Below are positions 53,337 through 54,970 of a stretch of 64,000 bases of DNA, in pieces. Below the pieces are notes generated by a model. The model did not search any database, was not told where the DNA came from, and was given only the letters and a program-made list of their open reading frames with translations. Each line of letters begins with the position of its first letter. Position 1 is the stretch's first letter. The position numbers were made by a program, and so were the translations under genes. Origin of the DNA: Paracoccus zhejiangensis (GTDB lineage: Bacteria; Pseudomonadota; Alphaproteobacteria; Rhodobacterales; Rhodobacteraceae); NCBI RefSeq assembly GCF_002847445.1, contig NZ_CP025430.1, positions 2,956,001 through 3,020,000 of the forward strand, read 5' to 3'.

Positions 53337-53627
53337 TCACCTAAATATCCTCTGCAAATCCCGTGATCCGTGCAGCACCCTGACAATCTGCACGTCCTCC
53401 CTGGCATCAAGGAAGAAGATCAGGTAGCGGCCGTGTCGAGCTGACCGCAGCCCTTTGCGCACATCGTCGCGCGCGGGGAAGCTTGCGGGGTGCTCGGCCG
53501 CTTGACGCATCTTGGCCTCGATCTCGGCCAGGAACGACAGGGCGCGCCCAGGATTGTCCTGGGCAATGAAATCACCGATCTCGATCATGTCAGCGCGCGC
53601 GGCGGGCAATATCACCAGGCGCGGCAC
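53337..53627 (-). CDS. parE: ParE-family toxin
   Basis: A 96-residue RelE/ParE-superfamily toxin: LVILPAARADMIEIGDFIAQDN at the start, PASFPARDDVRKGLRSARHGRYLIFF in the middle, and VQIVRVLHGSRDLQRIF at the end, the ParE layout with the R-V-L-H-G-x-R-D motif. ParE toxins inhibit DNA gyrase. It starts 3 bp after the antitoxin gene, so the two form an operon. It appears intact. Confidence 0.92.
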   Translation of the reverse strand: MPRLVILPAARADMIEIGDFIAQDNPGRALSFLAEIEAKMRQAAEHPASFPARDDVRKGLRSARHGRYLIFFLDAREDVQIVRVLHGSRDLQRIFR

Positions 53628-53630
53628 GGA

Positions 53631-53894
53631 TCAGGACTTCGCCCCATAGCGCGCGCGGAGTTCGGCAAACACCTGATCCGCCGGGATGCCCGGTCCACTG
53701 TCCAACCCTGCCTTGATCGCGGCCCGCAGGGCTTCCAACTCGCGCCGCTCCGTATCCCTGTTGCGAGTCCAGTCGCGCAGTGCTTCGCGGACAATCTCGC
53801 TGGCCGAAGCATATTCTCCGCCGGCAACGGTCTGGCGAAGGGTCTCGGCCATCTCGGAGGGCATCGTGATCGTCAGTCTTTCGACAGCACCCAT
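53631..53894 (-). CDS. parD: ParD-family antitoxin
   Basis: An 87-residue antitoxin. The N-terminal ribbon-helix-helix (ERLTITMPSEMAETLRQTVAGGEYASASEIVREALRDW) binds DNA, and the C-terminal half (LEALRAAIKAGLDSGPGIPADQVFAELRARY) wraps the toxin. It precedes parE in a two-gene operon. A perfect ATCATA/TATGAT palindrome lies 31 bp upstream, the expected autoregulatory operator. Confidence 0.92.
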   Translation of the reverse strand: MGAVERLTITMPSEMAETLRQTVAGGEYASASEIVREALRDWTRNRDTERRELEALRAAIKAGLDSGPGIPADQVFAELRARYGAKS

Positions 53895-54116: not shown

Positions 54117-54312
54117 AAAAAATGAAACGGGCCGCCCGAAGCAAGCGGCCCGCGAGTTCCACGGAGATGGTCCGGTTAGGGATGGATAAGATCCGTCCGG
54201 TCCCAATCAGGGTTTACGACCTTTAGGGCTGCCCTCAGGCCACGGCCCCCCTGACTGTTCCGACACCTCTCTCCAATATCACTCTCGACACTGGACCACC
54301 TCCTTTCAATTG
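54117..54312 (-). ncRNA. Putative small structured transcript with its own terminator
   Basis: On the minus strand a TATAAC box (54324-54319) predicts a start near 54312. The unit then holds a near-perfect anti-16S sequence, an 18-codon ORF (54291-54235), a hairpin ATCC-G-TCC/GGATGGAT region (54198-54180), and a terminator of CGGGCCGC/GCGGCCCG (54128-54152) followed by TTTCATTTTTT. No -35 at ideal spacing is visible; a TTGACA at 54358-54353 is too far. It is about 195 nt and may be a small RNA, a peptide mRNA, or both. Confidence 0.5.
54235..54291 (-). CDS. Putative 18-residue peptide ORF with extreme Shine-Dalgarno
   Basis: GTG-TCG-AGA... to TGA encodes MSRVILERGVGTVRGAVA. The sequence GAAAGGAGGTG ends 6 bases before the GTG and complements 11 consecutive bases of the conserved 16S rRNA 3' end; GGAGG is 7 bases from the start, the ideal distance. 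After one mismatch, tcc continues the complementarity. I do not recognise the peptide. Such strong initiation signals on a tiny frame, with a private terminator downstream, argue that it is translated. It could also serve only as a regulatory ribosome-binding site. Confidence 0.5.
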   Translation of the reverse strand: MSRVILERGVGTVRGAVA

Positions 54313-54358
54313 GTTGCCGTTATACCTGAAAGGGTGCCACAGTTTCGAAATCTGTCAA

Positions 54359-54970
54359 TCAGATTTCTTGAGTCTTGCTCAACAAATTGTTGACGATGAC
54401 GCGATAGGGCACAAGGGCAAGTATGGCCTGCGCCAGCTTGACCAGCCAGTCGGCCGCCGCCAGCGACACCCAGAGCGGTGCCTGCGGGCCAATGCCCAGA
54501 AGCGGCAGGGACTCGTTGGCCCAGCTGACATCATCGCTGGGGCTGATGAAGCTGAGCCCGCCGGCAAAGGCGATCGAGAAGAAGATCAGCGTGTCGGTGG
54601 CCGATCCGACCAGCGTCGAGGCCAGGGGCGCGCGCCACCAACTGCCGTCGCGCAGCCGGTTGAAGATGGTCACGTCCAGAAGCTGCGCGGTCAGGAAGGC
54701 GAGGCCCGAGGCCAGTGCGATCCTTAGCGTCGTCGCGCCGGCGCCGGCGGCGACCAGCGAGCAGGCGACGCCGATGACGAAGCCCGACAGCACCACCCGG
54801 CGGGCGGCAGCGGCGCCATAGACGCGGTTCATGACATCGGTGACGAGGAAGGCGATGGGGTAGCTGATCGCGCCCCAGGTCAGCCAGTTGCCCAGCTGGT
54901 GCTGGACAAGGATATTCGAGGCCACGACGATCGCGGCCATGGCAAGGATGCCGGGGAAGTAACGGGTCAT
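54359..54970 (-). CDS. yhhQ: Queuosine precursor transporter (YhhQ/VUT family)
   Basis: A 203-residue inner-membrane protein with about six helices that imports queuine-pathway precursors for tRNA modification. The family core is ISYPIAFLVTDVMNRVYGAAAARRVVLSGF, followed by LDVTIFNRLRDGSWWRAPLASTLVGSATDTLIFFSIAF, where the L-D-x-x-F and G-S-x-x-D-T motifs are typical. It ends in LVPYRVIVNNLLSKTQ. A good promoter and a hairpin over its ribosome site lie upstream. Confidence 0.92.
   Translation of the reverse strand: MTRYFPGILAMAAIVVASNILVQHQLGNWLTWGAISYPIAFLVTDVMNRVYGAAAARRVVLSGFVIGVACSLVAAGAGATTLRIALASGLAFLTAQLLDVTIFNRLRDGSWWRAPLASTLVGSATDTLIFFSIAFAGGLSFISPSDDVSWANESLPLLGIGPQAPLWVSLAAADWLVKLAQAILALVPYRVIVNNLLSKTQEI

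Follow-up and report, generated by a model that had tools for sequence, protein, structure and literature searches.

On the minus strand of the 64,000-nucleotide stretch of Paracoccus zhejiangensis DNA analysed here (NZ_CP025430.1, positions 2,956,001 to 3,020,000; hereafter the window) lies, at 54117–54323, a candidate small RNA of about 207 nt, the 5′ end of which is estimated from the promoter. The best explanation, to which we give a tentative preference a little short of even confidence, is a small RNA gene standing on its own, with an RNA that is translated, SD-gated, self-limiting and of dual-function type, the peptide probably being incidental. Sequence comparisons show conservation of the unit in relatives, together with the length and stop codon of its ORF, the pairing of the SD (SD1) with a 3′ box and the position of a second SD-like element (SD2). 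From these features we infer a transcribed and translated RNA, with a pause at the stop codon, an order of events and an output as follows. RNA polymerase would make the strong SD1 first, and therefore a ribosome could load on the nascent RNA; SD1 would be open on nascent RNA only, so that one or few ribosomes would load and read the 18-codon ORF. SD2 would delay the ribosome at the stop codon, and the 3′ box, once made, would pair with SD1, after which no further ribosome would load and the finished RNA would stay closed. The output would most likely be carried by the RNA and not by the peptide, either as a conformational switch or as an sRNA activity gated by ribosome occupancy; an RNA-level output is preferred because the peptides differ between lineages and the conserved codons are fixed to the letter.

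The promoter-like site directly follows an upstream gene: the −35-like TTGACA (54353–54358, minus) abuts the yhhQ stop codon, and the −10-like ACCCTT (54330–54335, minus), a degenerate hexamer that is only putatively assigned, is found 17 nt from it. TTGAC occupies the −35 position in 23 of 24 aligned same-genus loci and TTGAT in one. The complement of the 16S 3′ end, GAAAGGAGGTGGTCCAG (54291–54307, minus), contains the SD1 core GGAGGTG (54303–54297), and the 18-codon ORF VSRVILERGVGTVRGAVA (54235–54291, minus) has a GTG start (54291–54289) and a TGA stop. A start-codon hairpin with TCCA and TGGA arms around the GTG (54272–54295, minus) is a helix of the RNAalifold consensus; the best anti-SD match ahead of the stop, AGGGGGG (54246–54252, minus), constitutes SD2; the 3′ box GGACCATCTCC (54163–54173, minus) pairs with SD1 both in the predicted folding and as a consensus helix; an intrinsic terminator consisting of a 12-bp stem and a T tract (54117–54153, minus), also a helix of the 60-RNA consensus, ends the unit. 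The tiny 18-codon ORF at a GTG and the strong U-tract terminator had both been named in the original prediction, and both stand. Elsewhere in the window, a glycine riboswitch was detected (1833–1922, plus; 57.5 bits, cut-off 32).

The near-perfect anti-16S sequence of the same prediction was recovered as GAAAGGAGGTGGTCC at 54307–54293 of the minus strand, the best of five window sites with at most three mismatches from GAAAGGAGGTGATCC, where 1.63 are expected. The whole genome contains 31 sites within three mismatches of the 17-mer CTGGATCACCTCCTTTC, among which SD1 alone has at most one mismatch, the remainder having two (2 sites) or three (28 sites); the reversed control gave 5 sites. The 16S 3′ end, GCGGCTGGATCACCTCCTTTCT, was read from Paracoccus aminovorans, Cereibacter sphaeroides, Bosea and Sphingomonas plasmid records, and GAAAGGAGGTGGTCCAG is complementary to it at 16 of 17 positions, the odd base forming a G–U pair; since the host's own 16S was not found in the window genome, pairing with it is presumed from the tail of these four other alphaproteobacteria. 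The predicted duplex with the 16S end has an energy of −31.8 kcal/mol, compared with −6.6 to −10.7 kcal/mol for three ordinary SD cores, which agrees with the earlier view of a match far beyond an ordinary SD. A chance match to the 16S tail was rejected on the window and genome site counts, the reversed controls and the model hits in relatives.

BLASTN searches revealed homologs in 24 of 41 genomes, namely in 24 of the 25 of the genus (own counted) and in none of the 16 from other families. A covariance model, R1, built from 60 aligned RNAs and used with 95 bits or more as a strong match, found one strong match in 96 of 101 Rhodobacterales genomes, all of one family, a count in which 21 genomes (by handle) supplied model sequences and match by construction, and homolog counts of this kind are inflated by shared ancestry; only five Rhodobacterales genomes (G048, G078, G468, G476 and G501) showed no or weak R1 matches. 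Searches with the exact leader AAAGGAGGTGRTCCARTG located it in 38 of 385 alphaproteobacterial genomes, with no reversed-pattern control hit listed, and the species collection contains it in at least 117 stretches. The ORFs that follow it fall into several types: the Rhodobacteraceae type has 18 codons and the pattern VSRxxLERGVGT, VSHC and alike have 20–26 codons, MSS has 22–27 codons and the Bradyrhizobium group has 14 codons with the pattern VSxxKRCHLAGIAR (10 of 11). In the Bradyrhizobium-type loci L128, L136, L144 and L145, the ORF sequence CTCGCTGG has, by eye, a complementary copy, CCAGCGAG, ahead of the terminator, which may represent another masking arrangement. At four loci (L057; L070; L125, a Geminicoccaceae MAG; L156, Azospirillum), the same extreme leader is followed by ORFs of 56–59 residues with a hydrophobic signal-like start, and a Pfam search with three of these four proteins yielded no family above the cut-off. 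A plasmid or phage copy was rejected, blastn against both collections having given no match (near relatives of the window genome are possibly absent from them).

Among the matches listed, there are 192 distinct loci with the exact leader, and the ORF is no longer than 30 codons in 185 of them. The 94 loci of the window's type, chosen via the leader pattern and typed by peptide pattern, have exactly 18 codons in 91 cases; the exceptions are L092, cut by the locus end, one ORF of 20 codons and L199 (Devosia), which is outside the family. The stop codons of the 91 loci are TGA (43), TAG (36) and TAA (12), and TGG is absent, against the roughly 17 cases predicted for independent variation of the two stop columns. 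An ORF of 18 codons is present in all 30 top-scoring covariance-model hits and in 18 of the 20 lowest-scoring strong hits, the other two having 13 codons. This conserved length and stop would also suit an mRNA for a functional 18-residue peptide, in which folding only sets the amount made, a reading that we consider rather unlikely. It is favoured by the excess of synonymous changes in frame between close pairs (138 of 374, compared with 85 of 379 and 77 of 433 in the other frames), by the occurrence of 56–59 residue ORFs after the same leader at the four loci described above and by the near invariance of three residues among 77 ORFs, E7 (77 of 77), G11 (75) and T12 (76). The codons behind these residues, however, are fixed to the letter, with GAG in 77 of 77 at codon 7 and ACA in 76 of 77 at codon 12, which fits a constraint on the RNA. 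The arginine at codon 3 is likewise AGA in 62 of 62, and AGA and ACA are rare codons in GC-rich genomes. Codons are letter-conserved over the first two thirds of the ORF, whereas the last third, comprising the last six residues, varies freely, and the peptides of other lineages look unrelated by eye, both of which speak against a functional peptide. The letter-level conservation points to RNA constraint more than to peptide constraint. A further SD-like element, GAGAGGTGTC, is located mid-ORF at codons 7–10 in Rhodobacteraceae and exceeds synonymous recodings (0 of 200 as strong).

Returning to the preferred reading of a translated, self-limiting RNA, the pause at the stop codon would depend on SD2, defined as the best 7-nt match to the anti-SD within the ORF. 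SD2 ends 5–9 nt ahead of the stop in 73 of 79 distinct window-type ORFs, and its mean for the window type is −7.76, compared with −4.92 in codon shuffles (0 of 300 as strong) and −6.20 after synonymous recoding (none of 200 as strong). In the window itself, AGGGGGG (−7.9 kcal/mol) ends 8 nt before the TGA; its distance from the last sense codon, 5 nt, is equal to that between GGAGGTG and GTG; in most Rhodobacteraceae ORFs, the distance from the SD to the P-site is 5 nt at initiation and 2–6 nt at termination. In 15 of 17 non-alphaproteobacterial ORFs, the set tested after omission of two longer ones, the mean is −8.21, compared with −3.49 when shuffled (0 of 300) and −6.64 when recoded (0 of 200), and the element ends 7–8 nt before the stop in 10 of these 15. 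SD2 of the SHC type (37 ORFs) is above codon shuffles (0 of 300) and not above synonymous recodings (112 of 200 as strong); that of the Bradyrhizobium type (10 ORFs) is above shuffles (6 of 300 as strong) and not above recodings (196 of 200); that of the MSS type (16 ORFs) is above neither control (38 of 300 shuffles and 89 of 200 recodings as strong). For 9 other ORFs, 26 of 300 codon shuffles were as strong. The G-rich stretches near the stop may alternatively have a role in RNA pairing.

The original prediction knew of no annotated family that fits, which has to be revised, as Rfam CC2171 (RF01867) comes close: it is the only Rfam family with a convincing sub-threshold match to the window RNA, full-length and with 28.8 bits against a cut-off of 75. 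In 41 Rhodobacterales genomes, RF01867 gave a match at E ≤ 0.001 in 34 and above the cut-off in none. At eight other loci, it was above the cut-off at four (L154 Rhizobium, L132 Methylobacterium, L150 Brevundimonas and L135 Sphingomonas), all with ORFs of 21–25 codons after the same leader; L158 and L128 scored below it, and L101 and L162 gave no match. Conversely, R1, given 34 loci, scored 14.9–17.3 bits at the four RF01867-positive ones, which is no higher than its whole-genome secondary matches (24–34 bits). The window RNA has the CC2171 5′ box GAAAGGAGGUGRUCCAGUGUC, a similar length and a terminator in common with the family, but the model helix CAUUGUC/GACAAUG that encloses the middle of CC2171 is unformed in it, 5 of 7 pairs being non-standard, and in the Rhodobacteraceae RNAs the pairing of SD1 with the 3′ box stands in place of this main helix. 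Score and main helix both place the window RNA outside RF01867; because the 5′ box and the layout are common to both, it appears to be a relative or variant of CC2171. CC2171 is typed as an sRNA by Rfam, with no ORF mentioned in its description line. The Caulobacter sRNAs were reportedly first described by Landt and co-workers.

This kinship raises the reading of a base-pairing sRNA of the CC2171 group with an incidental ORF, which we regard as improbable. The full-length sub-threshold match, the U-tract terminator and the listing of relatives as sRNAs in Rfam and in PMC5596092, where a table row gives the Mesorhizobium huakuii RF01867 RNA as a 215-nt sequencing product, are consistent with it. 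An incidental ORF, however, does not suit the conserved stop codon and ORF length, nor the distance kept between SD2 and the stop, nor the two 13-codon variants, in which an SD-like element precedes the shifted stop by 10 nt, at the mid-ORF site of codons 7–10. As to translation, the Caulobacter map of Schrader et al. (PMC4117421) reports intergenic ncRNA regions as untranslated, CC2171 not being known to be among them in the text available, and some annotated sRNAs of S. meliloti are reported as translated (PMC10117765). In the text available for them, the Caulobacter Hfq-bound lists (PMC11005374, PMC12559287) use CCNA_R numbers that could not be linked to CC2171, nor could the entries of a Paracoccus denitrificans sRNA list (PMC5107571) be linked to the window locus. 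A literature search, with supplements outside its reach, found no description of the 18-codon ORF.

In structure predictions, the region 54117–54345 has an MFE of −93.5 kcal/mol (z = −2.72), and 2 of 200 shuffles fold as well. RNAalifold on 60 RNAs yielded four helices, i.e., SD1–3′ box, start-codon hairpin, a four-pair helix and terminator, in which 97.6%, 98.1%, 96.7% and 96.6% of the cells are paired, respectively, percentages that are favoured because the consensus structure was derived from the same alignment as was used to score it. When partners are slid by 1–3 columns, pairing in the whole consensus structure falls from 97.4% to 39–62%, and none of 500 shuffles attains the observed pairing percentage or covariation score, in line with the conserved structure that had been proposed. 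In the SD1 helix, the 3′ side varies almost only among pairing letters (C/U opposite G 32/26, A/G opposite U 43/13), and two-sided changes are absent because SD1 is invariant. The pentamer CUAAC just 5′ of the SD-masking box (54175–54179, minus) is nearly invariant, and the consensus pairs only its last C. The predicted paired probability of SD1 in the window type is 0.913, compared with 0.70 in shuffles (15 per locus), with 91 of 92 loci exceeding the mean of their shuffles. Masking in the remaining types shows no clear excess over shuffles (SHC 0.652 vs. 0.706, 35 loci; MSS 0.636 vs. 0.673, 17 loci; Bradyrhizobium 0.737 vs. 0.700, 11 loci; other 0.717 vs. 0.706, 28 loci), and for this reason the SD gate may be particular to the Rhodobacteraceae lineage. 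A 16S-tail mimic inside SHC-type ORFs was considered and is not claimed, since masking there is not above shuffles.

The extension of SD1 and the start hairpin behave alike among the 20 lowest-scoring strong relatives, being retained or lost together, so that 16S pairing and the hairpin are indistinguishable as the keeper of the extension. GGAGGTG is retained in all 20 and the extension in 6; since the other 14 have lost it, the extended 15–17 nt match to 16S is not essential. The exact-pattern leader searches require the extended match and therefore cannot test its conservation. In the alignment of 60 RNAs, four of the seven hairpin pairs never vary. In the 6 relatives with the extension, the hairpin is strong and always falls within the lowest 5% of shuffles; it is weak in the 14 without the extension, where it has a mean of −4.5 kcal/mol compared with −3.2 kcal/mol in shuffles, 10 of them being below their own shuffle mean; its presence in these relatives is weakly supported at best. 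Preservation of the hairpin in other letters after loss of the extension was rejected by the shuffle control (2 of 14 within the lowest 5%).

These results bear on the idea that the RNA is a decoy, titrating 30S subunits or ribosomes by holding the 16S 3′ end, which we judge quite improbable. The two SD-like sites and the predicted energy of pairing with the 16S tail, which exceeds the −19.9 kcal/mol of the internal helix, would suit a decoy, but SD1 is masked in the predicted fold and the extended match is lost in the same 14 relatives. The original prediction had likewise offered capture of ribosomes by the SD, but the predicted resting state is just the reverse, the SD being tied up in internal pairing. 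Since the unit, the tiny ORF and the structure are all conserved in relatives, that prediction otherwise survives as far as conservation is concerned.

The upstream neighbour yhhQ (Pfam Vut_1; 54359–54970, minus) lies outside the RNA unit and is a conserved neighbour: of 88 Rhodobacteraceae loci with sufficient flank (3 further loci had too little), 80 have a same-strand Vut_1 gene ending no more than 250 nt away, compared with only 1 of 88 other loci, L092, which is itself Rhodobacteraceae with its ORF cut by the locus end. Because of this distribution, the adjacency is taken as lineage synteny, and a functional tie to yhhQ or queuosine was set aside. Downstream of the RNA, a ParD/ParE-type toxin–antitoxin pair is encoded (53337–53894, minus). 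A role as leader or attenuator for a downstream gene is highly improbable and was rejected, for although a leader-peptide-like ORF, alternative helices and a terminator are attenuator parts, the unit has its own promoter-like site and terminator and no conserved regulated downstream gene was found, the biggest downstream gene cluster covering 21 of 85 loci.

Among the matches listed, at least 17 exact-leader loci come from records assigned by name to other phyla or classes or to bacteria without placement; these assignments are record names, including those of MAGs, and a search space of 257 Gb should yield some chance hits. The same leader with ORFs of 9–21 codons was observed at 14 loci (L095, L101, L102, L104, L112, L113, L114, L139, L162, L163, L177, L182, L187 and L192), named as Acidobacteria, Phycisphaerae and other Planctomycetes, Krumholzibacteriia, Gemmatimonadota, Lujinxingiaceae, Myxococcales, Nitrospirae, Spirochaetia or unplaced. 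Eight of these 14 loci have GAGGTGG shortly before the stop and a peptide that ends with EV and a few residues, and in six the distance from GAGGTG to the stop is 9 nt. A broader proposal, which we regard as unlikely, is that a device of this kind exists in several phyla, where a mini-ORF RNA would load one ribosome at an extreme SD and park it at the stop via a second SD placed about as far from the P-site as the first, SD1 being then masked and the RNA reporting or using the single occupancy.

Provided that ribosomes load on it and are then retained at the stop, the RNA would offer a natural system for SD strength, SD masking and SD-assisted termination pausing, in a class where, at least for Caulobacter, 75.4% of start sites reportedly have no SD (PMC4117421). 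If the preferred reading is true, an sRNA family of Rfam that is so far uncharacterised, together with Rhodobacterales relatives that had gone unrecognised, would become a testable class of translated self-masking small RNAs.

In prfB (RF2), an SD-like AGGGGG precedes the frameshift stop by a few nucleotides, after about 25 codons. The window RNA resembles prfB in having AGGGGG shortly before the stop, and a programmed frameshift was considered because of this; unlike in prfB, the last sense codon is not fixed in window-type ORFs, and the idea was set aside. The STAB-SD sites of Bacillus have a GAAAGGAGG core, and type I toxin mRNAs have long-range SD masking. The window RNA shares this core and, by prediction, such masking, but it differs from both in having no general downstream gene and a short peptide with charged residues. 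A small RNA with a small ORF is also found in Pos19 of Rhodobacter sphaeroides (PMC5036791) and rnTrpL of Sinorhizobium meliloti (PMC10117765), both reported as translated. Pos19, 219 nt long with a 150-nt frame, is reported as found in R. sphaeroides only, and the leaderless rnTrpL is the attenuator RNA of trpE. Unlike the window RNA, neither is described with a masked SD and an SD-like element at the stop in the text available for these two reports. To the parts named in the original prediction, the present analysis adds the promoter-like site after the yhhQ stop, the 3′ box complementary to SD1 and the second SD-like element before the stop codon.
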